This document shows positions 21,954-42,536 of a DNA stretch of 42,536 bases, piece after piece. Under the pieces are notes generated by a model. The model did not search any database. It saw only the letters and a list, made by a program, of their open reading frames with translations, and was not told the DNA's origin. Numbering within the stretch: position 1 is the stretch's first letter; the number at the start of each line of letters is the position of its first letter. The position numbers and the translations under genes were made by a program. Source of the DNA: Acholeplasmataceae bacterium (GTDB lineage Bacteria; Bacillota_I; Bacilli_A; Acholeplasmatales; Acholeplasmataceae); the NCBI GenBank assembly GCA_018399615.1, contig JAGYNT010000003.1:1-42536 (forward strand), written 5' to 3'.

Positions 21954-22088
21954 AGGACTTATTAAGAGCTACGGAGGCCAGTGACCATCGATGTAGCAGC
22001 AACCTATTGAGTTAGGTGCTAACCACGAGGGGTAAATCCCAACAATAAGGAAAACGTATGCTTTTCCTTCGAAAAGCGTATTTTTTTT
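21954..22088 (+). ncRNA. SAM-I (S-box family) riboswitch upstream of metK
   Basis: CTTATTAAGAG opens the aptamer and AATAAG (22044-22049) closes P1. Inside are the S-box landmarks CGGAGG, AGCAGCAACCT and AGGTGCTAACC, where ACCT/AGGT forms the paired element and GCAACC carries conserved core bases. The stretch GGCCAGTGACCATCGATGTAGCAG differs from the commonest S-box consensus, so a divergent SAM-I subtype is possible. The expression platform is explicit: AAGGAAAA (22048-22055) pairs with TTTTCCTT as an antiterminator, while the same TTTTC strand pairs with GAAAAGC in the terminator before the T-run. With SAM bound, P1 takes up the AATAAG strand and the terminator forms, lowering metK. Confidence 0.88.
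22056..22088 (+). terminator. Riboswitch-controlled terminator before metK
   Basis: GTATGCTTTTC pairs with GAAAAGCGTAT around a CTTC loop and runs into eight T residues. It is mutually exclusive with the AAGGAAAA/TTTTCCTT antiterminator. Confidence 0.85.
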
Positions 22089-22110: not shown

Positions 22111-23274
22111 ATGATTACGTATTTCAGCAGTGAATCGGTGACCGAAGGTCATCCGGACAAAGTCTGTGATCTGATTTCCGATGCGATCCTCGATGCCTGT
22201 CTGGAGGGTGATCCTCACTCACGCGTCGCATGTGAGACCGCGATCACGAATGATTACGTCCTCATCTTCGGTGAGATCACGACACGGGCGAAGGTGGATT
22301 TCGCAAAGATCGCACGCGAAACGATCAGAAAGATCGGTTATGGCGACAAGGGCTCGGGTTTCGATCTTGAAACCGCCAGGATCGATGTCCGGATCAAAGG
22401 ACAATCCGAAGATATCGCCCAAGGGGTCGATCGCGTCGAACAGAACGTTCTCGGTGCGGGCGACCAGGGACTCATGTTCGGTTACGCGACCGATGAAACG
22501 AAAGAATACATGCCGTTGCCGATCGCGTTATCACACCGAATCGCCCGCCGTCTTTCCGATGTTCGAAAACATAAGGTGATCGAAGGACTCGGTCCCGACG
22601 GGAAAACACAGGTGACGGTCGCCTATGAGGACGGCAGACCGAGTTTCATCGACAACGTCGTTCTTTCGACACAGCACCATGACGATGTCGACCTGGACGC
22701 ATTGAAAACAAGGATCGTCCACGACGTCATCGATCCCGTGCTATCGGATTACGATACCACGAAGACGACCTATCAGATCAATCCGACCGGACGGTTCGTC
22801 ATCGGTGGGCCCGACGGCGATGCCGGAATGACCGGACGAAAGATCATCGTCGATACCTACGGTGGTTACGCCCGTCACGGGGGAGGCGCGTTTTCCGGCA
22901 AGGACTCGACCAAGGTCGACCGCAGCGCGGCATACATGGCGCGCTATCTCGCCAAAAACGTGGTTGCTGCCGGGTTGGCCAAGTCGTGTGAAATTCAGCT
23001 CGCCTACGCGATCGGCCTCACGGAACCGGTAAGCATCAACATCGATACGTTCAATACCGGGGTCATCCCGTCCGATGTCTTGCGTCGTTTCATCATCGAG
23101 CATTTCGACCTCACACCGAAAGGGATGATCGATCGGCTCGGACTAAGACGTCCGCTTTTCGCACAAACCGCCTGTTACGGTCATTTCGGTCGTGAGGAAA
23201 AAGAATTTACCTGGGAACGGCTCGATAGCGTTGAATTATTCGAACAATTGGGATATAATGACCGTAGCGAGTAA
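22111..23274 (+). CDS. metK: S-adenosylmethionine synthase
   Basis: MetK makes S-adenosylmethionine from methionine and ATP. The 387 residues contain the family signatures [23 protein letters not shown] (N-terminal His and metal Asp), [15 protein letters not shown], and [18 protein letters not shown] (P-loop-like lysines), and have standard length. AAAAGGAG precedes the ATG. The gene is controlled by the SAM riboswitch directly upstream, a feedback loop on its own product. A promoter for the next gene is embedded in its last 45 bases. Confidence 0.97.
23231..23259 (+). promoter_or_regulatory. Promoter for DUF3137-lemA inside the metK 3' end
   Basis: TTGAAT (23231-23236), a 17-nt spacer, then a perfect TATAAT (23254-23259), about 40 nt before the DUF3137 start. 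It would free the downstream pair from riboswitch control. Confidence 0.65.
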
Positions 23275-24999: not shown

Positions 25000-27471
25000 A
25001 TGTTGAAAAAGTGGTTTGATCCGGGTAAAAAGATATTGAAAGAAGCCAGAAAAATCGCGGAAGCGGTCTTCGAACTCGAAGATGACATGGCAGTGCTCGA
25101 TGACTCGGATTTCAAGAAGAAAACAGAGGAATTGAAACAACGATACGCGGAAGGCGAAAAGCTCGAGAGCTTGGAAGTCGAAGCGTATGCGCTCGTTCGC
25201 GAAGCGTCCAAGCGCGTCACGGGACTCGTTCCCTATTTCGTGCAGGTGCAGGGAGCGGCGAGTATCTTTCGGGGGAACATCGCCGAAATGAAAACCGGTG
25301 AAGGGAAGACGCTGACTGCCGTCATGCCGGCGTATCTGAACGCTTTGAACGGTGAAGGCGTTCACATCGTCACCGTCAACGAGTACCTCGCCTCACGTGA
25401 GGCGAACGGCGAGATCGGTGAGCTGTTTCGCTTTCTCGGGCTGACGGTCGGACTGAATCTGCGTGATATCACACGGGAACAGAAAAAGGAAGCATACGAC
25501 TGTGACATCCTCTATTCGACCAACAGTGAGCTCGGGTTCGACTATTTGCGCGATCACATGGTTCTCTATGCGCGCGACATGGTTGCCCGTCGTGGGCTCA
25601 ACTACGCGATCATCGATGAAGTCGACTCGATTCTGATCGATGAGGCGCGGACGCCTTTGATCATTTCCGGAGGCGCGAAACAGAATTACAATCTCTATCA
25701 GTCGGCCGACCGTTTCGCAAAATCATTGCGTGACGAGGACTTTGAGATCGATATCGAAGCCAAGACGATCGCGCTTACCCCTACCGGGATCAAACGGGCC
25801 GAACAGATCTTTCAACTCGACAATCTCTATGATCTCAGACACGTGACGCTCGTTCACCACATCAACAACGCGCTTCGTGCGAACTATATCATGTTCAGAG
25901 ACAAGGACTATGTCGTCGACAACGACGAAGTTCTGATCGTCGATCAGTTCACGGGACGTATTCTAAGAGGACGCCAGTTCAGCGAGGGGCTGCACCAGGC
26001 GCTCGAAGCGAAGGAAGGCGTACGGATCAAGAAGGAAACGACGACAGTCGCGACCATCACGTATCAGAACTTCTTCCGTATGTACAAGAAGCTTTCCGGT
26101 ATGACCGGTACCGCGAAAACCGAGGAAGACGAGTTCCGTGACATCTATAACATGGATGTCGTCGAAATACCGACCAATGAGCCCGTGATCCGTGACGATG
26201 AACCGGACTATATCTTCGCGAACATGAAAGACAAGTTCAACGCCTTGGTCGATGAGATCGAGCGACGTTATGAAATCGGTCAACCGATGCTGATCGGTAC
26301 GATCGCGGTTGAAACATCCGAAGACATTTCCCGCATGCTCAGGCAAAGACGGATTCCGCACGAAGTGCTGAATGCCAAAAACCATGAGCGTGAAGCGGAA
26401 ATCGTCGCCAAAGCGGGTTTGAAGAAATCGGTTACGATCGCGACCAATATGGCCGGTCGGGGAACCGACATCAAACTCGGTGAGGGCGTCGTCGAACTCG
26501 GCGGACTCGCCGTGATCGGCAGTGAACGACACGAATCACGTCGGATCGACAACCAGTTGCGCGGTCGAAGCGGTCGTCAGGGTGACCCGGGGTACTCCCG
26601 TTTCTACCTATCCGCCGAAGACGAACTGATGCAGCGTTTCGGGAGCGAGACGTTCAAACGACGGATCGAGATGCTCGAACGCATGAATACGACGGGTGAG
26701 CCGCTCGCTTCGAAAATGTTTTCCCGTTTTGTCGCCGGGGCCCAGAAGCGAATCGAAGGAAACAACTACGACGCCAGAAAGAACGTCCTCAAATACGATG
26801 ACGTCCTCAGGAAACAAAGAGAAGTCATCTATCAGGAACGCCGTGACGTCCTGACGCTCGACAGTATCGAAGACCATGTTCGGGATACGGTATCCAAGAG
26901 TATTTCGAGTGTTCTCGATCAGCACATCCACCCCGTCGGCAAGAATCAGTTCGAAATCGACGATGATGCGATCGTCGCCTATTTCAACGGCAATTATTTC
27001 CCACCGGAAACCTTGCACAAGGAGACCTTGCAGCAATACGACGAAGTCGAAGTCAAGGAATACATCGTCGCGCTTGCCAACCGCGAGATCGATCAGAAGA
27101 AAGAAAACGTCCCCGAGGCGGTTTTCAACGAGTTTCTCAAGGTCGTGATGTTGCGCGTCATCGATACGTACTGGATGCGTCACATCGACGCGATGAGCGA
27201 ACTCAGACAAGGCGTTTCCCTGCAGTCCTACGGTCAGGACAATCCTCTGACCATCTATCAGAGCGAAGGGTTGCGCATGTTCAACGATATGGTCAACAAC
27301 ATCGCCAGAGACGTCACGCGCTATGTCCTGCGGGCACAGATCCAATACAACGTCGAACGTGAGGCCGTCGTCAAGAACACATCGACCAACCAGGGACGGA
27401 CGGATTCGGGGAAACCGAGGAAACCGAAAGTCAGAAAGAACCGAAACCAGAGAAATCTGCCCTGGCGCTAA
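25000..27471 (+). CDS. secA: Preprotein translocase ATPase SecA
   Basis: SecA drives preproteins through SecYEG. The 823 residues include Walker A AEMKTGEGKTLTA (about residue 95-107), DEAD-type motif IIDEVDSILIDEARTPLIISGG, VDQFTGRILRGRQFSEGLHQALEAKEG, FFRMYKKLSGMTGTAKTE, ATNMAGRGTDIKLGEGV, and NQLRGRSGRQGDPG; the helical scaffold/wing parts follow. The C-terminus ends in a basic tail (KPKVRKNRNQRNLPWR) and lacks the CxCx8(H/C)C zinc-binding motif that many SecAs use for SecB or lipid contact. Such loss is known in some lineages. Start ATG has AAAGGATG upstream. First gene of a five-gene operon; an AAGGAG site leads into prfB 11 nt later. Confidence 0.97.
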   Translation: MLKKWFDPGKKILKEARKIAEAVFELEDDMAVLDDSDFKKKTEELKQRYAEGEKLESLEVEAYALVREASKRVTGLVPYFVQVQGAASIFRGNIAEMKTGEGKTLTAVMPAYLNALNGEGVHIVTVNEYLASREANGEIGELFRFLGLTVGLNLRDITREQKKEAYDCDILYSTNSELGFDYLRDHMVLYARDMVARRGLNYAIIDEVDSILIDEARTPLIISGGAKQNYNLYQSADRFAKSLRDEDFEIDIEAKTIALTPTGIKRAEQIFQLDNLYDLRHVTLVHHINNALRANYIMFRDKDYVVDNDEVLIVDQFTGRILRGRQFSEGLHQALEAKEGVRIKKETTTVATITYQNFFRMYKKLSGMTGTAKTEEDEFRDIYNMDVVEIPTNEPVIRDDEPDYIFANMKDKFNALVDEIERRYEIGQPMLIGTIAVETSEDISRMLRQRRIPHEVLNAKNHEREAEIVAKAGLKKSVTIATNMAGRGTDIKLGEGVVELGGLAVIGSERHESRRIDNQLRGRSGRQGDPGYSRFYLSAEDELMQRFGSETFKRRIEMLERMNTTGEPLASKMFSRFVAGAQKRIEGNNYDARKNVLKYDDVLRKQREVIYQERRDVLTLDSIEDHVRDTVSKSISSVLDQHIHPVGKNQFEIDDDAIVAYFNGNYFPPETLHKETLQQYDEVEVKEYIVALANREIDQKKENVPEAVFNEFLKVVMLRVIDTYWMRHIDAMSELRQGVSLQSYGQDNPLTIYQSEGLRMFNDMVNNIARDVTRYVLRAQIQYNVEREAVVKNTSTNQGRTDSGKPRKPKVRKNRNQRNLPWR

Positions 27472-27482
27472 GGAGATCAACC

Positions 27483-28580
27483 ATGGAACGGTACGAAGTA
27501 CATAAAGTCCTCGCGGAATACGAGGATACGCTCGAATCGCTGAGAAACGCGATCGATCCCGACACGCTTCTCAAACGTTATCAGGATCTGAATGCCGTCA
27601 TGCAGGATCCGGAATTCTGGAAGAACACGAAAGAAGCGAAGAAAACGTCGAAGGAAGCCAACCAGATCAAAGGGAAAGTCGACGCTTTGAAGAAACTCGA
27701 GAATGACTACCAAAACGTCGTCGACTGGTTCGAGATCGCCGAGGAACAGTCCGAAGAATGGAGCATTCTCGAAACCGATATCGATCGCCTCAGAAAAGAA
27801 CTCAAGGCCTTTGAAATCGAAACGCTTCTGAACGGACCTTATGACGATTCGAACGCGATCGTCGAACTGCACCCCGGTGCCGGTGGCACCGAGGCGCAGG
27901 ACTGGTGCGACATGCTCTTTCGCATGTATCAGCACTATGCTCAGAAAAAGAGCTACAAGGTCGAGATTCTCGACTATCAGAGCGGTGATGAAGCGGGGAT
28001 CAAGAGCGTGACGATGCACGTCAAGGGACCCTATGCCTACGGCTATCTGAAAGCCGAGCGTGGTGTGCACCGTCTGGTGCGCATTTCCCCCTTCGACTCG
28101 AATGCGCGTCGCCATACCTCGTTCGCATCGGTCGACATCATGCCCGAACTCGATGATGAGATCGAACTCGACATCAAGGACGATGAACTCAAGATCGACG
28201 TCTATCGAAGCAGCGGAGCCGGAGGTCAATCGGTCAACACGACGGATTCGGCCGTTCGGATCACCCATTTGCCTTCGGGAATCGTGGTGACCTGCCAGAA
28301 CGAACGGAGCCAGATCAAAAATCGGGAAACCGCGCTGTCGATTCTCAAAGCGAAACTCATGCAGGAAGAAATCCGTCGGCAGGAAGAAGAAGTCAAGTCG
28401 ATCAAGGGCGAACAAAAGGACATCGCCTGGGGTTCGCAGATTCGCTCCTACGTCTTTCACCCCTATCAGATGGTCAAGGACCACCGGACGAACCACGAGA
28501 TCGGAAACGTCGAAGCGGTCATGGACGGGGACCTGGATGCCCTGATCAACGCCTATCTCAAAAAGGGTGATGCATCGTGA
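27483..28580 (+). CDS. prfB: Peptide chain release factor 2
   Basis: RF2 releases peptides at UGA and UAA stops. The 365 residues carry the anticodon-like SPF tripeptide (VRISPFDSNARRHTSF) and the catalytic GGQ loop (RSSGAGGQSVNTTDSAVRITHLPSG). The whole protein is in one frame: the programmed +1 frameshift site that many bacteria use near codon 25 is absent. Its presence, with TGA stops in the window, shows UGA is a stop codon here. Placement directly after secA is typical of Bacillota. The stop overlaps the next start (GTGA). Confidence 0.96.
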   Translation: MERYEVHKVLAEYEDTLESLRNAIDPDTLLKRYQDLNAVMQDPEFWKNTKEAKKTSKEANQIKGKVDALKKLENDYQNVVDWFEIAEEQSEEWSILETDIDRLRKELKAFEIETLLNGPYDDSNAIVELHPGAGGTEAQDWCDMLFRMYQHYAQKKSYKVEILDYQSGDEAGIKSVTMHVKGPYAYGYLKAERGVHRLVRISPFDSNARRHTSFASVDIMPELDDEIELDIKDDELKIDVYRSSGAGGQSVNTTDSAVRITHLPSGIVVTCQNERSQIKNRETALSILKAKLMQEEIRRQEEEVKSIKGEQKDIAWGSQIRSYVFHPYQMVKDHRTNHEIGNVEAVMDGDLDALINAYLKKGDAS

Positions 28581-29449
28581 ACAAACGCAAGCTCAAGGAA
28601 TGGACGGAGATCTCATTAGGCGTTTTCGTGCTTTCCGCGGGCTTTTATTTCTTTTTGTTGCCGCAGGCGCTCGTCATCGGTGGTGTCATGGGGGTTGCCG
28701 TTTTTTTCAAGGAAATCATTTCCGTCAGTCTTTTCATCTATATCGTCAACGGTGCTCTGCTGATCATCGGACTGATCTTTCTGGGAGGGGTTTTCTTCTG
28801 GAAAACGATCTATGCATCGCTCCTTTCACCGAGCATTCTTTTCATGTTCGAGCTCTTCATTGAAGAGGATGTCATCATGAGGCACTTGTCGGAAAGTCCG
28901 CTTCTGATCGGTACGGCGTTCGGCGGACTGCTCGTCGGTCTCGGTCTCGGTCTGGTCCTTCGAAACAACGGGACGACCGGAGGCATCGATATCATTCAGA
29001 AGATCGCCAACAAGTATCTCAAGATCCCCTTTTCCTGGGCGATGTATGCCACGGATGGAACGATCATTCTCATCGCGATGATCATCGACTTGCAGCTCGG
29101 TCTCTATGCGGTCTTCGCCATGCTTATTTCCGGTTTCATCATCGACCGGGTGGCGATCGAGGGGAGAGCCGGTTATACGGTTTTCATCGTGACGCTCAAG
29201 GGTCCGGATATCCAGGGAGAAATCTATCGGCGACTGAGACGGGGATTGACCAGGGTGCGCGTCATCGGCGGGTATTCCGGGTCCGAACGGGACATGATCA
29301 TCTGTACCGTCAACCGTGTTCAGCTCTATCCGTTCAAATTGTTGATCAAAGAAATCGATCCCGAAGCGTTCACCTTCGTCACCAAGACGAAAGAAGCGCT
29401 CGGAGAAGGATTCAGCAGGGAGGCATACGCATGGCAGGCAAAAGGCTAG
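28577..29449 (+). CDS. YitT family membrane protein
   Basis: A 290-residue member of the YitT/DUF2179 family. The first two thirds hold about five transmembrane helices (GVFVLSAGFYFFLLPQALVIGGVMG, LFIYIVNGALLIIGLIFLGGVFF, LIGTAFGGLLVGLGLGLVLRNNGTTGGIDII, MYATDGTIILIAMIIDL, VFAMLISGFIIDRV). The NNGTTGGIDII segment is a family signature. The last 80 residues are the DUF2179 cytoplasmic domain (YTVFIVTL...RGLTRVRVIGGYSGSERDMIICTVNR). Transport has been suggested for the family but the substrate is unknown. Start is GTG 28577 behind AAAGGGTG, overlapping prfB. Confidence 0.9.
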   Translation: MNKRKLKEWTEISLGVFVLSAGFYFFLLPQALVIGGVMGVAVFFKEIISVSLFIYIVNGALLIIGLIFLGGVFFWKTIYASLLSPSILFMFELFIEEDVIMRHLSESPLLIGTAFGGLLVGLGLGLVLRNNGTTGGIDIIQKIANKYLKIPFSWAMYATDGTIILIAMIIDLQLGLYAVFAMLISGFIIDRVAIEGRAGYTVFIVTLKGPDIQGEIYRRLRRGLTRVRVIGGYSGSERDMIICTVNRVQLYPFKLLIKEIDPEAFTFVTKTKEALGEGFSREAYAWQAKG

Positions 29450-30942
29450 GAATCATTTTCATCGCGGCGGTCATACTCGCCTTTCTTACGGGACTCTACG
29501 CATCGCGCATCGTCGTGATCAACCCGACCGAGGGGGGAGAAGATCTTTTTTCATATATCAACGAGCGTTTCGACGAATATTACTACTACGACATCGATGA
29601 TCAGAATCGAAACGAGGCATTCGTTGCCCAGATGGAAGCGATCATCGACGCCTATGCGGACGCCAACAACGACCCCTATACGAGACTTTCACGGACACCC
29701 GTCGGTATCGCACCGGGTGACGCCGAGCGGTTTGTGGGTCTGGGCATCAACTATCAGCAGGAAGGAAACGATCTGCGCGTGCACTACGTGCAGCACGGCA
29801 GTCAGGCATTCAACAATCTCTATCCGAACGACCTGATCGTCGGTGTCGAACGGGAAGGCGAAGACGTCTTTTTCGATACGCTTCGAAGCCATCAGGACGC
29901 GTTGGACCACATCCGGGCCGAGGAAGGCGAAACGCGGACGTTGCTCGTCCGAGATCCCGATCAGACGATGCATCGCGTCCGGATCGAATTCCGGGAAATT
30001 CTGACACCGACCGCCTATTCGACGGATCTGGGATCCGATGAACTGGGCTATATCCGGATCACGCAGTTCTCCGCTTACCGTGAAAACGTCACGGCCGGGA
30101 CGAACACCGTCTTCGCCGATGTCCTTTTGGAACTCGAACAGGGGAAATTCATGGAGGATACGGAAAACAAAACGCTCATCATCGACCTGAGAGACAATCC
30201 CGGTGGCGCGCTCACCGCGCTTCACAATCTCGAAGTGAAGGGTTTGTTGCCGGGGATCATTCAACAACTCTTCGTCAAGGACATCGAACGCCCGGTATTC
30301 GAGATGATCGACAAAAACGATGCGAACCGAACATTTCTTGGCGGACTGACATCCGCCAAAGCTTATGACATCGTCGCCCTTGTCAACGAGAACACCGCAT
30401 CCGCCGCCGAAGTGCTCGCCGCCGGACTGAGGGAATATGCCGGATATGAACTCTACGGGACGCCCACGTTCGGCAAGGGTGTCTATCAGAATACCCTATC
30501 GCTCAATGAGATCGACGGTGTAGAGTACGCTCTCGTCTACACCGAAGGCGAGTGGTTCTATGGCGACAGACAGAATGTCTCTTCCGATCCGCTTGAGGTC
30601 AACCTCATCGAGCAGAGCGGTTTTCATACGTTGCCTCTCCCCTTTTACGAGGGTTATCTCGCATTCGATTCGGTTTTGCCGGGTCTGGGAACCTATCAGG
30701 CGTTTTTGAATGTCTATTACGACTTGGAGGGTGACGATGCCCTCCGCGTGGACGGCTATTTCGATCGGGCGACCGAGGAGGCCTTTAAACGCTATCAGGG
30801 CGACCTCGGGCTTGACGTGACCGGGGCGTTGGACCGGATGACGGCGATGAGCATCCACGATGTCTATCTTGAGAAAACGAACGATCCCGCTGCCGATGTC
30901 CAGTTGCAGGCGCTGATCGACCACTTGCTCGACGCGTCATGA
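29431..30942 (+). CDS. S41 family C-terminal processing peptidase with PG-binding domain
   Basis: A CtpA/CtpB-type serine protease of 503 residues. It has an N-terminal membrane anchor (LGIIFIAAVILAFLTGLYAS), a PDZ domain (FVGLGINYQQEGNDLRVHYVQHGSQAF...NDLIVGV), and the S41 catalytic core (LGYIRITQFSA, TLIIDLRDNPGGALTALH). The Ser-Lys dyad is clear: Ser324 in ENTASAAEVLA and Lys349 in TFGKGVYQ. The C-terminal 80 residues form a peptidoglycan-binding-like helical domain (LRVDGYFDRATEEAFKRYQGDLGLDVTGALDRMT). It acts outside the membrane on envelope proteins. Its ATG lies 19 nt inside yitT, and its stop overlaps recX (ATGA). Confidence 0.93.
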   Translation: MAGKRLGIIFIAAVILAFLTGLYASRIVVINPTEGGEDLFSYINERFDEYYYYDIDDQNRNEAFVAQMEAIIDAYADANNDPYTRLSRTPVGIAPGDAERFVGLGINYQQEGNDLRVHYVQHGSQAFNNLYPNDLIVGVEREGEDVFFDTLRSHQDALDHIRAEEGETRTLLVRDPDQTMHRVRIEFREILTPTAYSTDLGSDELGYIRITQFSAYRENVTAGTNTVFADVLLELEQGKFMEDTENKTLIIDLRDNPGGALTALHNLEVKGLLPGIIQQLFVKDIERPVFEMIDKNDANRTFLGGLTSAKAYDIVALVNENTASAAEVLAAGLREYAGYELYGTPTFGKGVYQNTLSLNEIDGVEYALVYTEGEWFYGDRQNVSSDPLEVNLIEQSGFHTLPLPFYEGYLAFDSVLPGLGTYQAFLNVYYDLEGDDALRVDGYFDRATEEAFKRYQGDLGLDVTGALDRMTAMSIHDVYLEKTNDPAADVQLQALIDHLLDAS

Positions 30943-31685
30943 AAAGGGTTGAAAGCATCCTTGTCAAGGACAGGAAAAGGCATGTCGTCATCGACGGCAG
31001 TGCATATCCGATCGAATTCGAGCTGATCGGGAAATACCGGCTTCGACCGGGCAGGGAGCTGAGCGACGGCGAACTTTTCGAACTGCTCGGCGAAAACGAA
31101 CGCGTCCTATACGACAAGCTCGCCATCCGTCGTCTGAAAAGCATGCGGACGGAATACGAACTCGCTTCCTATCTTGAGAACAAGGGCGCTTCGAAAAAGC
31201 TTGTCCGTGAACTCATGGACATCTATCGGACAAAGAAGTACGTCGATGATGACGCCTACGCATCCTATTATGTCGAAACCAGGAAACGTAGCGAAGGACC
31301 GCGCAAGATCGAAGAAAAACTCAAGGAAAAGGGTGTTTCCTCGGTCATAATCGAGAAAGTTCTGAACTATGACAGTTACGAGATCGTCTTTGATCTGATC
31401 AAAAAGCGGATCGAGACCAATCGTACGAAAAACAGAAAGAAACTCGTTTTGAGTCTGAAGACGCATTTCGTCGGCAAGGGCTTTTCTTTGGAAGTCGTCG
31501 ATGACGCGATCCGGCATGCGCTTCGCTACTACGCCGCCGATGAACAAGCCTTGTTGAAAAAGGATTATGAGAAGTTGGTTGTCGCTTACGAGAAAAAAAT
31601 GGATCGAGCGACGCTCGAACCATTCATCAGACAAAAACTCTATCAGAAAGGATACGCGTACGAGGACATCAAAAAGTTATTCTGA
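30939..31685 (+). CDS. recX: Regulatory protein RecX
   Basis: RecX binds RecA filaments and modulates recombination and the SOS response. The 248 residues have the three-helix repeat pattern (ALRRLKSMRTEYELASYLENKGA-like, YVDDDAYASYYVETRKRSEGPRKIEEKLKEKGV, and later KKLVLSLKTHFVGKGFSLEVVDDAI, LEPFIRQKLYQKGYAYEDIKKLF), the longer form usual in Bacillota. It starts within the stop of the S41 gene (ATGA) and is the last gene of the secA operon. Its 3' end overlaps the convergent GH3 gene by 9 nt with no visible terminator. Confidence 0.9.
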   Translation: MKRVESILVKDRKRHVVIDGSAYPIEFELIGKYRLRPGRELSDGELFELLGENERVLYDKLAIRRLKSMRTEYELASYLENKGASKKLVRELMDIYRTKKYVDDDAYASYYVETRKRSEGPRKIEEKLKEKGVSSVIIEKVLNYDSYEIVFDLIKKRIETNRTKNRKKLVLSLKTHFVGKGFSLEVVDDAIRHALRYYAADEQALLKKDYEKLVVAYEKKMDRATLEPFIRQKLYQKGYAYEDIKKLF

Positions 31686-36990: not shown

Positions 36991-37046
36991 GAAAAAAGGG
37001 ATTCACTTTCTTGCATGAAACATGAATCAGGACAGGAGACTTGAAC

Positions 37047-39358
37047 ATGCTGACTCTCAAAGCAATCAATCGAACGTATCAAGTCGGCAAGCGACGCGTC
37101 ACCGCGCTCGACTCCATCGATCTTTCGTTTGAAAACGTCGGGTTCGTATCGATTCTCGGGCCATCGGGGTGCGGGAAGACGACCCTTCTCAACATCATCG
37201 GCGGACTCGATCGTTACACGACGGGCGAACTCTTGATCGATTCGGTTTCAACCGTCGATTATGACGAACACGACTGGGATGCCTACCGCAATCACCGAGT
37301 CGGTTTCGTCTTTCAGAACTACAATCTGATCACGCACATCACCGTCTTGCAGAATGTCGAACTCGCCCTGTCCTTATCCGGTGTCGCGAAAAGCGAAACC
37401 AGACGACAGGCCATGCGGGTCCTGGACGACGTCGGGTTGACCGAACACTGCCACAAGAAACCCAATCAACTCTCCGGTGGCGAACAACAGCGCGTGGCCA
37501 TCGCCCGCGCGCTGGCAAACGATCCGGACATCATTCTGGCCGATGAACCGACCGGAGCGATCGACAGCAGGACCAGTGCGCGGATCATGGACATTCTCAA
37601 AGCCGTATCGAAATCGCGGCTGGTCATCATGGTGACGCACAATGAATCGATCGCCAAGACGTATAGCGACCGGATCATCCGTTTGCTCGACGGTCGTGTG
37701 CAAAGCGATGACCGGGCAGTTGAAGAAGACAGGACCAGACGCCAGATCGCACCCTTGAAAACGGCGATGTCCCACGTGACCGCGCTCGCACTCAGCATGA
37801 ACAATCTTTGGACGAAAAAGATCCGGACGATCATGACTTCCGTTGCCGGAAGCATCGGGATCATCGGTGTCGCGCTCGTCATTTCGCTCGTCTACGGTTT
37901 TCAATCCTATGTCGACCAGGCACAGAAGGATCTGCTCGCCGGCATTCCCATCCAGATCGACCGGATCGCCTATGTCGAAAACAGATCTTTGGACGATTCC
38001 CTGTCGACCGAGATCGAACTTCCCCCCCGGTTTCCCGACGATGAGACCGTGACGCCCTATGTACCGGTGACCCGATACAGTCCCACAACGCACGTCAACA
38101 CGCTCACAAAGAACTATCTCGATTACCTTGACGGACTCGATTCCACGCTCTATGAGGATATGACTAGACCGCTACTCCGTCAGGCCGACGTTCTTGAAGG
38201 ATACGTCCGCAAGGCATCATCGGATCCACCAACGCCTTTCGAATCCGTGAGCTCGCCGTCGACGATCCGGCGTATATCGGAGAACAATATGATATTTTGC
38301 GGGGGCGTCTGCCAAAGAGGATCCCTTGAGACCGTCATCGTCATCAACAGTCGAAACCAATTGCTCGATACGATGCTGAGCGCGCTCGGATATCCGGGGG
38401 ATGACGTCGAAGTGACCTTCGACGAGTTGCTCGATACGACGTTCGTTCTCCCCGATTTGGACGACACTATGTTTCAATGATACGAACGGGCTGTTTGAAA
38501 AGACCTCTCGGCCTTTTACACGAACCACAGGGCCAAAACGATCGACGTCGTCGGTATTCTCAGAATACGTCAGGATCGCCTCGAACGAAGGCCTGCTCGG
38601 TACCGGGGATCGGCTATACGTCCGCTCTGACCGAATACGTGCTCGACATGGCGGCACGTTCGAACATCGTTATTGCCCAGAGAGAGGTCTTGGAAGCGAA
38701 CACGTATGTCGATGTCATGACGGGCGCACCTCTGACCGAACGGGCCGTCCTGGAACGTCTGGCCGCCCTTGGGGCTCCCCAGATGCCCAATCGGATCACG
38801 ATCTATCCCAAGAGCTTCGAAGCGAAAGAGGACATCGCCGACTATCTGGAGCGTTACAACGACCGCTTCGATTCCCTAACGGAAACCGAAAAGATGATTT
38901 TTCACACCGATTACGGTGCGCGCATCACCGAAAGACTCGGTGAAGTCATCGCTTCGATTACGCTCGCGCTCATCGGTTTCGCCGTGATCTCACTGATCGT
39001 CTCCTCGCTTCTGATCGGGATCGTGACCTACGCCTCGGTGATCGAGCGTACCAAGGAAATCGGCATACTCAAGAGCATCGGTGCCCGGAAAAAGGACGTC
39101 CTTCGCGTCTTCAACGCCGAAGCGATGATCATCGGATTCATTGCCGGTTCGATCGGCATCGGGATCGCGCTTCTTTTGAACCCTTTGATCGATCTTTTCG
39201 TTTACCGCCTCGCCTCCGTGCGCTCGATCACGCGACTGACGCCGTGGATCGCTTTACTTTTAATTCTCGTCAGCATTGCGTTAACCTTGCTTGCCGGCCT
39301 TATTCCTGCTAAAATAGCAGCAGGTAAAGATCCTGTAGAAGCACTAAGGACGGAATGA
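37047..39358 (+). pseudogene. MacB-like ABC transporter (ATPase-permease fusion) with a frame-broken middle
   Basis: One gene is split by the track into 37041-38480 and 38477-39358. The N-terminal ATPase is intact: Walker A GPSGCGKTT, Q-loop FQNYN, signature LSGGEQQRVAIARAL, Walker B IILADEPTGAID, H-loop VTHNE. A first transmembrane helix follows (GIIGVALVISLVYGF), then an extracellular domain, then three FtsX-type helices (LIGFAVISLIVSSLLIGIVTYASVIERTKEIGILKSIGA...) ending DPVEALRTE. Between about 38200 and 38620 other frames carry the missing pieces (DDPAYIGEQYDILRGRLPK, FNDTNGLFEKTSRP, AKTIDVVGILR), so about five indels lie in 400 bp of an otherwise clean 2.3-kb gene. Start ATG 37047 lies 8 nt behind AGGAG; the track's TTG 37041 is too close to it. 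Probably functional in the organism. Confidence 0.85.
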
Positions 39359-39362
39359 TCTG

Positions 39363-40016
39363 ATGAAAATCGAAATATGGTTCGACTATCTTTGTCCTCT
39401 GAGTTATCAAACCCACAAGAACCTCGAGTTCGTCCTCGAAAACTATCATTTCGATGATCTCGAGGTTCTCTACCGAAGCTATGAGGTCATCCCCAAATTC
39501 AATATGCACGAATCCTGCACGCTTCACGATGTCGTCAGCAAACACCACGTCCTGACACCCGAGGAAGCACGCGAACTCTTAAAGGAAATCAAGGATGTCG
39601 ACAAGGTGACCCCCGTATCCGTACACGATGCCCATCGCCTGTCGCATCTCGCGAAACACCAGGATAAGGCCTATGCTTTCAACAAACGCGTTTTCAAGGC
39701 GTTTTACGAGGACCTCCAGGATATCAGCGACACGCGCGTACTCCGTGCTCTCGCTCTTGGGGCCGGTCTCGAAGAAGACGAGGTCGATGACGTGCTCGAA
39801 TCGAGCAGATATGACCATGCCGTCGAATGCAATCGGGAGAACGCCATCATGAAAGGGATTCACGAGATTCCCCATATGCGCATCAACAGGCAGATCAGAC
39901 TGTCCGGACTGCAATCGATCAAGGACCTCATCACCTGTCTCAATCGTGCCCTCTATATCGAGAATCCGAGCGAGTATTGCGAGGGAGATAACTGTATGAG
40001 GAAGAAGACTCGATGA
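39363..40016 (+). CDS. DsbA/FrnE-like thioredoxin-fold protein, monothiol
   Basis: A 217-residue member of the DsbA-like FrnE group (cytoplasmic, no signal peptide). The N-terminal strand IEIWFDYLCPLSYQTHKNLE corresponds to the family's D-F-x-CPWC site, but here the second cysteine is serine (CPLS), so disulfide exchange by a CxxC pair is not possible. The helical insertion and the cis-Pro loop (IMKGIHEIPHMRINRQIRLSGLQS) are present. A CEGDNCMRKK tail carries two more cysteines. Polyketide-isomerase-like or glutathione-dependent roles are known in relatives; the function here is unknown. It follows the ABC gene by 4 nt and ends the operon at a terminator. Confidence 0.82.
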   Translation: MKIEIWFDYLCPLSYQTHKNLEFVLENYHFDDLEVLYRSYEVIPKFNMHESCTLHDVVSKHHVLTPEEARELLKEIKDVDKVTPVSVHDAHRLSHLAKHQDKAYAFNKRVFKAFYEDLQDISDTRVLRALALGAGLEEDEVDDVLESSRYDHAVECNRENAIMKGIHEIPHMRINRQIRLSGLQSIKDLITCLNRALYIENPSEYCEGDNCMRKKTR

Positions 40017-40181: not shown

Positions 40182-40237
40182 ATAGAGTGTTTATGGGAAC
40201 ACATATTACTTTTTCATTAAGCATAAAGGAGACATCG

Positions 40238-41623
40238 ATGGCACATTTATTCGAAACCGTCCACAACAATTTTTTCAGTGTCCTCGCCTCGCCGAACAAG
40301 AATACGTATATCGACTGCATCTTCGTCATCTATCACGCCCTCGACAGCATCGAGGACGCTTTTCAAGGTGACCGAGAATTCGTCATTCAAAGACTGATCG
40401 ACTATTTCGACGATCAGCCCGGTGATGACTTTGTCGACGTCGATGAAGGCGAATCCGCCAAAACGAGTCGCCAGAAGGCCGTACACGTTCTGAGCATTCT
40501 CAAGAAGAACGGCTGGCTCGGTGAAGAGGAACTCGGCGACTACAAGACGTCGATCAATCTCTTCGATTATTCGATCAAGATCATCGACGTGCTTTCGAGA
40601 ACATCGTCAATTTCACACAAAACGAGTACACGGGTGAAATCTTCACCGTTTATTCAGCTTCTTTCTTCCTTTCAGATCGACGAGGGCATCGGTGTGATCG
40701 AACAGGCCTTTCAGAAGACGAACGACATGATCCGCAAACTCAAAACGCTGAAAGCCAATATTTACCGGTATTACTACGACATCACCAAAAAACGATCGAA
40801 AAACGACCTCCAGCAACTCCTCGAAAAACTGCTCGTCGAATACAAACAGGATTTCTTCGACTCGGCATATTACAACCTCAAGACGACCGACAGTCTTCCG
40901 CGCTACAAGCGCGCGATTCTCTCCGCGATCTCCGAGGTCATCAACGATCCTGAGACGATGGACCTCCTCGCGAAAAACGCCCAGGCGATCAAACGGATCG
41001 AGGATTACAATGACGCGTTCATCTACGTCGAGGATCGCTTGAGATTCATCACCGACAGTTTCAGTTCGCTCGAGTTTCTGATTCTCGCGATCGACCGGAA
41101 AAATGAGCAATACATCAGTGCGGCGGCATCGAAGATTCTTTTCCTGACGAACCGATCCGACGACATCGAAGGTATTTTCAACCGCTTCTTCCAGGTCGTC
41201 TTGAAACAGAAGGACGTCGATTACAGCCGCTTCGTCAAGCTCATCCAGATGAAAAACCTCGATACCCAGTCGCTCTACAATCAACGACGTACCCGTCAGG
41301 AAGTCATTCCCGAAGAACTGATCTTCGACGAGGACATGATTTCCGCGGATTACCGGCAACAGAAAGTGCGCGATCTTCTCAAGAACAACATCTACGGCAA
41401 ACGCGAGATCGATCGTTATGTCAAAAACCTTCTCAAGAATCGTTCGGCCATGGAAGCTTCCGAAGTTCCGCTCGATACCCAGGAGGACTACGTGAAACTC
41501 ATTTTGATCTTCATGTATTCCAAGTCGATCGGCATGCACTATGAGATCGAACTGCTCGGACGCGAGTGCAAGACCAACCATATCCGGTTTCAAAATTTCA
41601 TGATCAAGGAGTATAGGGGATGA
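40238..41623 (+). CDS. jetA: Wadjet defence protein JetA (DUF5716-type)
   Basis: JetA is the kleisin-like subunit of Wadjet, an SMC-related complex that recognises and cleaves circular plasmids. Start ATG 40238 (MAHLFETVHNNFF) has AAAGGAGA; the track's GTG 40172 has none. The 461-residue product shows HLFETVHNNFFSVLASPNKNTYIDCIFVIY, KKNGWL with a winged-helix feel, LFDYSIKIIDVL, and a helical C-half (EVPLDTQEDYVKLILIFMYSKSIGMHYEIELL). Odd point: between 40593 and 40657 the ORF reads SRTSSISHKTSTRVKSSPF, while the next frame reads ENIVNFTQNEYTGEIFTVYS, the more protein-like sequence. One missing T and one extra G compensate. Overlaps jetB by ATGA. Confidence 0.85.
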   Translation: MAHLFETVHNNFFSVLASPNKNTYIDCIFVIYHALDSIEDAFQGDREFVIQRLIDYFDDQPGDDFVDVDEGESAKTSRQKAVHVLSILKKNGWLGEEELGDYKTSINLFDYSIKIIDVLSRTSSISHKTSTRVKSSPFIQLLSSFQIDEGIGVIEQAFQKTNDMIRKLKTLKANIYRYYYDITKKRSKNDLQQLLEKLLVEYKQDFFDSAYYNLKTTDSLPRYKRAILSAISEVINDPETMDLLAKNAQAIKRIEDYNDAFIYVEDRLRFITDSFSSLEFLILAIDRKNEQYISAAASKILFLTNRSDDIEGIFNRFFQVVLKQKDVDYSRFVKLIQMKNLDTQSLYNQRRTRQEVIPEELIFDEDMISADYRQQKVRDLLKNNIYGKREIDRYVKNLLKNRSAMEASEVPLDTQEDYVKLILIFMYSKSIGMHYEIELLGRECKTNHIRFQNFMIKEYRG

Positions 41624-42258
41624 ACAAATCGAAAGCCTTAACCCAGTTCCATGAGCAGTACGCCACGCTCAAGGAAGGGGAAAAAACCATCTTTTCCCGT
41701 GTCGTCAACAAGCTCTTGCAGGTCAACTTCCTGACACGACGCAAAGTCGGCGATACGAACGACTATCGTTTCATTCTCGCGTACAAGGAGAGTTTCGAGG
41801 CGTTTTTCGCGCTGATCGATTTCGAACTTTTCATCGCGCGCGAATACGAAGTCGTCTATATCGAAAACGTCAACCTGTTCAATCACATGCGTCTCAGAAA
41901 AACGGAAAGTGTTCTCACGCTCGTCATCCGCATCCTCTACCAACGGAAGATGGATCTCGTCACGCTCGATGAGGACGTCGAGATCTATTTGCATGAGATC
42001 CATGCCGAGCTGACCCGAATCGGTTATCTCGATCATAAAAGAATCACGAAGGACCAGCTTCGTCCCGCTCTTTCTTTTCTGAGAAGTTACAACATCATCG
42101 ACTATATCGATCGGGGACTTCATGACGATGCCAGGATCAAGATCTACCCGACGATCCTGTTCGTGACGAATTTGGACAATATCAAGGAAGTCGTTGCCAA
42201 ACTCGACAGTTACGTTGAAGGAGGTGGGGATAGCGATGAAGAAACTGACGAAGATTAA
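41620..42258 (+). CDS. jetB: Wadjet defence protein JetB (DUF4194-type)
   Basis: JetB is the KITE/MukE-like subunit of the Wadjet SMC complex. The 212 residues are predicted to be mostly winged-helix: KEGEKTIFSRVVNKLLQVNFLTRRKVGDTNDYRFI, IDFELFIAREYEVVYIENVN, RLRKTESVLTLVIRILYQRK, LRPALSFLRSYNIIDYIDRGLHDDARIKIYPTILFVTN, the last being the usual DUF4194-type ending. The acidic tail DSDEETDED is read over the jetC start. It overlaps jetA by 4 nt and jetC by 23 nt, so three subunits are made by coupled translation. Confidence 0.85.
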   Translation: MNKSKALTQFHEQYATLKEGEKTIFSRVVNKLLQVNFLTRRKVGDTNDYRFILAYKESFEAFFALIDFELFIAREYEVVYIENVNLFNHMRLRKTESVLTLVIRILYQRKMDLVTLDEDVEIYLHEIHAELTRIGYLDHKRITKDQLRPALSFLRSYNIIDYIDRGLHDDARIKIYPTILFVTNLDNIKEVVAKLDSYVEGGGDSDEETDED

Positions 42259-42536
42259 GTTGGTGAATTGGCATCTTTTCAGCAATGAGACGATCGACAT
42301 CAAGGACAACGCCCTCATATCGGGGGAAAACGGATCGGGGAAATCCACGCTCTTAGATGCCATGCAGTTCATGCTCGTCGGCGGACGAGGCGGAACGAAG
42401 TTCAACGTCGCCGCCACCGACGACGCCAAGCGTACGCTTGAAGGCTACGTCCGTGGTCGGATCGGTGCCGAAAACAAGGAGTTTCTCAGAAACGGAGACG
42501 TCGTGTGCCATCTGGCACTCGAGTTCTTCGATGAGC
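42236..42536 (+). CDS. jetC: Wadjet SMC-like ATPase JetC, 3'-truncated by window edge
   Basis: Only the first 100 codons are present. They read MKKLTKIKLVNWHLFSNETIDI, ISGENGSGKSTLLDAMQFMLVGG and end near VCHLALEFFDE. GENGSGKST (residues 30-38) is the Walker A of an SMC/MukB-type ATPase, and KIKLVNWHLFSNE is the typical N-terminal strand of the JetC/SbcC-like group. JetC supplies the ATP-driven loop-extrusion motor of Wadjet. The ATG lies inside jetB behind GGAGGTGGGG. The ORF track does not list it because it runs off the window. jetD, the topoisomerase-VI-like nuclease, is expected further right. Confidence 0.88.
   Translation, partial: MKKLTKIKLVNWHLFSNETIDIKDNALISGENGSGKSTLLDAMQFMLVGGRGGTKFNVAATDDAKRTLEGYVRGRIGAENKEFLRNGDVVCHLALEFFDE

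Follow-up and report, generated by a model that had tools for sequence, protein, structure and literature searches.

A nuclease-free, Wadjet-derived JetABC complex as the probable chromosomal condensin of Acholeplasmatales devoid of Smc-ScpAB

The 42,536-base contig C108 of an Acholeplasmataceae bacterium, analysed here in its entirety and referred to as the window, ends in an operon for the subunits JetA, JetB and JetC, known from the Wadjet defence systems. The source genome measures 1.37 Mb and is 67% complete. Comparison of its sequences with those of its relatives indicates that JetABC is probably a domesticated, nuclease-free complex of the structural maintenance of chromosomes (SMC) kind, derived from Wadjet and most likely acting as chromosomal condensin in bacteria that have no Smc-ScpAB. 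The operon had originally been predicted to be a Wadjet defence operon, a claim that finds no support: the subunit names were correct, the system was not, and by its defining nuclease this is not a Wadjet defence operon, given that no jetD accompanies it. A chromosomal condensin is preferred over plasmid-cutting defence because the genes are vertically inherited and slowly evolving and because Smc-ScpAB is absent from the order; in a lineage without that complex, JetABC would most likely be the sole chromosomal condensin.

Homology identifies the three products as JetA, JetB and JetC, and their genes stand together on the forward strand. The overlaps of 4 and 23 nucleotides reported in the original prediction have been confirmed by the coordinates, and the DUF5716 and DUF4194 assignments by Pfam and PADLOC profiles. 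A kleisin-type subunit of 461 amino acids (DUF5716/JetA) is encoded by jetA (40238–41623, with a Shine-Dalgarno-like AAAGGAG upstream at 40225–40231), matching the Pfam JetA profile PF18982 at E 7e-74 and the PADLOC JetA1 profile PDLC00442 with 299 bits. The gene overlaps at 41620–41623 with jetB (41620–42258), whose product is a KITE/MukE-like subunit of 212 amino acids with matches to DUF4194 (PF13835, E 1e-25), MksE (E 2e-5) and the PADLOC JetB1 profile PDLC00479 (218 bits). A second overlap, at 42236–42258, leads into the 5' end of jetC (42236–42536), which encodes the N-terminus of an SMC-like ATPase and is interrupted because the contig ends there, at an assembly break. The N-terminal 100 amino acids of JetC match the PADLOC JetC1 profile PDLC00519 with 172 bits, the match to the Muk-type MukB profile is weak (E 2e-4), and the Walker A motif GENGSGKS (42323–42346) is intact, as in all JetC proteins compared.

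The missing 3' end of jetC was located with the JetC profile on another contig of the same genome (locus L002, C6:3–617), where the match spans model positions 893–1090 of 1097 with 273 bits and the C-terminus holds the signature motif and Walker B. About 2.4 kb from the middle of the gene, between C108 and C6, is unassembled in this genome; within that limit the complex has the composition of a condensin, with intact SMC ATPase motifs, a kleisin, a KITE subunit and no nuclease. A gene for a C1-family peptidase of 439 amino acids (C6:637–1956; PF03051, E 3e-163) starts 20 nucleotides after jetC and occupies the position in which jetD would stand. The remainder of the ATPase, which the original prediction had expected beyond the contig end, thus exists here and at full length in relatives, whereas the jetD expected with it is absent here and in relatives. 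Even at E<=10, the JetD_C profile PF09983 gave no match in this genome (67% complete), on which ground a JetD acting in trans was rejected, and a JetD with a Toprim nuclease domain was found neither in this genome, nor in its family, nor among the downstream genes.

Across 20 loci, the first genes 3' of jetC encode C1 peptidase, SepF, nucleotidyl transferase, RNA methyltransferase, tRNA synthetase, chaperonin, transporters and similar proteins, and no recognised nuclease adjoins jetC. Viewed by family, jetC is followed by the C1 peptidase in f1, by the nucleotidyl transferase in part of f11 and by the RNA methyltransferase or a thioredoxin-like gene in f24; two small genes in f21 and one gene for 576 amino acids in f7 have no clear family. 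An unrecognised nuclease 3' of jetC was rejected, as these first downstream genes are mostly housekeeping. Where a true JetD gene exists, it usually shares between a few and about 70 nucleotides with jetC. The IFDR motif of type I JetB, which contacts JetD (PMC10586767), is uninformative as a marker of lost coupling, being missing from the N-terminus of both jetD-bearing and jetD-less JetB.

In the Acholeplasmataceae, jetABC is syntenic, vertically inherited and under strong purifying selection. Mean identities within the family are 0.77 for JetA, 0.80 for JetB and 0.75 for JetC, with 0.77 for release factor 2 (PrfB), and the distances of the three subunits correlate with those of PrfB and of a DEAD helicase (r 0.80–0.97). 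The ratio of nonsynonymous to synonymous substitution rates (dN/dS) lies between 0.02 and 0.09 where dS is estimable; dS is high and the values are approximate. The patchy occurrence and strong divergence usual for defence genes are not observed. The closest public relatives of the window's JetA are found in Acholeplasmataceae (64–72% identity), with phytoplasmas at about 34%, and in a tree of JetC the copies of the family form one fully supported clade that includes the phytoplasmas. Among 59 jetD-less JetC proteins, 58 have all three ATPase motifs (Walker A, signature, Walker B) intact, the exception being a divergent copy with the signature SGAE in genome G250 (family f17).

A survey of 150 Acholeplasmatales genomes, 78 of them from the window's own family, revealed JetA in 120 and JetC in 125, mostly as full-length open frames. 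JetD was detected in seven (five in f3, two in f5) and in none of the 78. ScpA was found in no genome of the 150, and neither was Smc above the cut-off, control genomes being positive as expected. Counting from the listed hits, JetA or JetC occurs in 47 of the 50 own-family genomes outside the phytoplasma-like genus g10 and in 18 of the 28 within it. At the level of the class, 247 genomes were surveyed (117 with ScpA, 130 without), and Smc-positive and ScpA-positive genomes belong to the same families. JetA is present in 58 of the 130 genomes without ScpA versus 10 of the 117 with it (Fisher p 1e-10, the genomes not being independent), and an operonic JetD accompanies it in 2 of those 58 versus 6 of those 10. 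Families without Smc-ScpAB hold jetD-less jetABC, and JetD occurs mostly where Smc-ScpAB is present. By lineage, JetABC stands in place of Smc-ScpAB, with the exceptions of f12, which has both complexes, and f5, which mostly has neither.

These exceptions, together with the nature of the counts, weigh against a condensin role. The genome counts are not phylogenetically independent, and f12, which has ScpA, also holds jetD-less jetABC, sometimes beside a JetD-bearing operon, so that replacement of Smc is not the sole context of the jetD-less form. Furthermore, 10 of the 28 phytoplasma-like genomes and most f5 genomes hold neither JetABC nor Smc, so that a condensin is not an absolute requirement in the order; the phytoplasma-like genomes that have neither JetA nor JetC tend to be larger. 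In the near-complete f5 genome G019 (L193–L272), a third SMC complex was sought in 1.6 of 1.88 Mb, and nothing beyond weak SbcC- and RecN-like matches was found; this genome possibly represents a lineage without any condensin.

JetC proteins from JetD-bearing operons are not monophyletic. Four to five changes are required on the tree, and their placement in a single clade was rejected (approximately unbiased test, p about 1e-56), so that a simple one-time loss of JetD across the class is untenable and jetD-less lineages arose repeatedly or JetD was regained; the tree is unrooted and does not prove the direction of change. Four f3 genomes (G007, G054, G058 and G062) contain a jetD-less operon and, as a second copy, a JetD-bearing one. 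Compared between these genomes, the jetD-less JetC proteins are 57–71% identical and the JetD-bearing ones 22–56%, while the two forms within a genome share about 25% identity. Three f12 genomes with two copies show no such contrast (34–49% for jetD-less JetC, 52–56% for the JetD-bearing form). Genome G213 holds a broken JetD-bearing locus (L151, on G213:C32), with JetA in two fragments and a stop in JetD, together with an intact jetD-less jetABC (L150).

In the sister family f3, the cell-division gene sepF lies directly 3' of jetC in all 10 loci (L143, with sepF at L143:9571–9906, and L133, L134, L137, L139, L141, L144, L146, L147 and L104; Pfam E 1e-8 to 1e-11). A TAATG stop-start overlap of 1 nucleotide forms the junction in 5 of the 9 printed cases, the others having a gap of at most 2 nucleotides or a longer overlap. 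We have seen no earlier description of a Jet complex connected to cell division in this way. The chances appear about even that Wadjet motors were repeatedly and independently disarmed and adopted as a chromosomal SMC complex within the class, replacing or accompanying Smc-ScpAB, with one family tied to cell division through its jetABC-sepF operon. The lineages concerned would be the Acholeplasmataceae with the phytoplasmas, the group of f3, f2, f4, f23 and f24, that of f21 and f11, and f7.

From what holds for SMC complexes in general, ATP-driven loop extrusion would be expected of JetC, JetA and JetB. A dimer of the SMC-like ATPase JetC would be bridged by the kleisin JetA and clasped by a dimer of the KITE subunit JetB, and the resulting ring may extrude DNA loops using ATP in the manner of related JetABC and MukBEF complexes. 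In Wadjet, the finished extrusion of a small circle has been proposed as the trigger of JetD; a ring without this Toprim nuclease would only fold DNA and aid its segregation, with no cutting.

One stretch of the window's JetA departs from this picture of conservation. Residues 119–145 or thereabouts (about 27 residues, at about 40592–40668 on the forward strand) are out of frame relative to every relative, and an alternative frame of the printed sequence gives NEYTGEIFTVYS, which matches them. Two compensating indels introduced as an assembly error are probably responsible. The window also contains an ATP-binding cassette (ABC) transporter at 37041–39358 whose ATPase (37041–38480) and FtsX-like permease (38477–39358) occupy two open reading frames with an apparently frameshifted junction. 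Taken together, this junction and the JetA stretch suggest indel errors in the assembly.

Other explanations for jetABC are considerably less probable. It is unlikely, if conceivable, that the complex is a defence system without its own nuclease that still recognises small circular DNA and holds it in check through compaction, or that enlists an unrelated nuclease from another locus. Such a role would agree with the homology to a plasmid-restriction motor and with the eukaryotic Smc5/6 complex, which is believed to silence viral DNA through compaction alone, with no cleavage (PMC10586767), and the absence of JetABC from some phytoplasma-like genomes, which are larger on average, could fit relief from restriction. 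Nonetheless, jetABC occurs almost throughout the family, where it is syntenic, vertically inherited and as conserved as PrfB; its neighbours after jetC have housekeeping functions, with no recognised nuclease among them, and its distribution is complementary to that of Smc-ScpAB, with sepF directly after jetC in f3.

That the operon is an ordinary Wadjet system, with jetD merely missing from the assembly or located elsewhere, is highly improbable and has been largely refuted. The genome is indeed incomplete and the operon split over two contigs, but the gene directly after jetC on C6 is a peptidase, closed or near-complete relatives also have no JetD, and the identical JetD profile detects true JetD in seven genomes of the order. 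Even less credible is a Wadjet remnant decaying after recent loss of JetD, an idea that the aberrant JetA stretch might suggest but that purifying selection throughout the family refutes: relatives have intact frames, low dN/dS and intact ATPase motifs, and the jetD-less state is common to the whole family including the phytoplasmas.

The core-like surroundings noted in the original prediction were borne out, as the series is conserved in Acholeplasmataceae relatives. Its nearly constant order is secA, prfB, yitT, S41 peptidase, recX, amidohydrolase, dsbA-like, (DEAD helicase), jetA, jetB, jetC and C1 peptidase. The window keeps this series with an inserted glycosidase, regulators and the ABC transporter: the block from secA to recX, named from Pfam matches, lies at 25000–31685 and precedes jetABC as it does in relatives, and the DsbA-like gene (39363–40016; PF01323, E 3e-23) lies upstream of jetA in the order kept among relatives, all on the forward strand. 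In phytoplasmas, jetB and jetC are adjacent and jetA is found elsewhere (L027, L030, L032 and L186–L191). Farther upstream in the window, an S-adenosylmethionine riboswitch (RF00162, 49.5 bits) at 21956–22051 lies just upstream of a gene for S-adenosylmethionine synthetase (22111–23274).

The placement of the operon outside type I, also part of the original prediction, is not established. The best PADLOC profiles are JetA1, JetB1 and JetC1. The predicted model of JetA has a mean predicted local distance difference test score of 63.5, a low confidence for which only the ranking of fold matches was used; nearest is the Wadjet-II JetA 9qe0 (E 2e-6), ahead of the E. coli JetA 8as8 (E 1e-2), with MukF among the top matches. 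Searches of solved structures by sequence with the JetA profile, JetB and full-length JetC found no relative, and the window's JetC N-terminus reached a solved JetC at only E 9e-5.

For the origin of MukBEF-like condensins, a route from chromosome organiser to defence and back to organiser has been proposed. The Acholeplasmatales, and probably neighbouring orders, would add natural cases of a motor changing its role, among them genomes with armed and unarmed copies side by side, and culturable Acholeplasma in which that role can be tested. In the open-licence literature, no paper was found that reports a nuclease-free Wadjet condensin or a missing JetD in the phytoplasma/Acholeplasma group. 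Much of this group may be miscounted by tools that score a match to JetA, JetB or JetC as Wadjet defence.

Among known systems, Wadjet JetABCD shares with it the gene order (kleisin, KITE, SMC-like ATPase) and the overlapping frames, and its profiles (PADLOC JetA1, JetB1 and JetC1, Pfam JetA, DUF4194) detect the present jetABC. In contrast, the Acholeplasmatales operon has no JetD, is vertical, syntenic and slowly evolving, and is present where Smc-ScpAB is absent. With Smc-ScpAB, missing from the order by both Smc and ScpA profiles, JetABC would share a cellular role, although the homology is only distant. A precedent is provided by MukBEF of enterobacteria, where a Wadjet-like condensin with no nuclease has taken over from Smc-ScpAB (PMC10586767) and whose MukF appears among the JetA fold matches; it is nonetheless of a different lineage, Muk-type profiles match the present proteins weakly, and JetC is shorter, at about 1,100 positions against 1,486 in the MukB model. 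MksBEF of Pseudomonas aeruginosa acts on the chromosome and is regarded as a core of the Jet/Mks type from which the nuclease has been lost (PMC10586767). That species has Smc as well, whereas JetABC is apparently the only SMC complex here; the JetA is of the DUF5716 kind, and the lineage is an independent one. The nuclease-bearing MksBEFG of Corynebacterium glutamicum acts on plasmids and not in chromosome organisation (PMC10123090). By analogy, the JetABC of Acholeplasmatales fits the chromosomal pattern of MksBEF and MukBEF rather than that of C. glutamicum MksBEFG.
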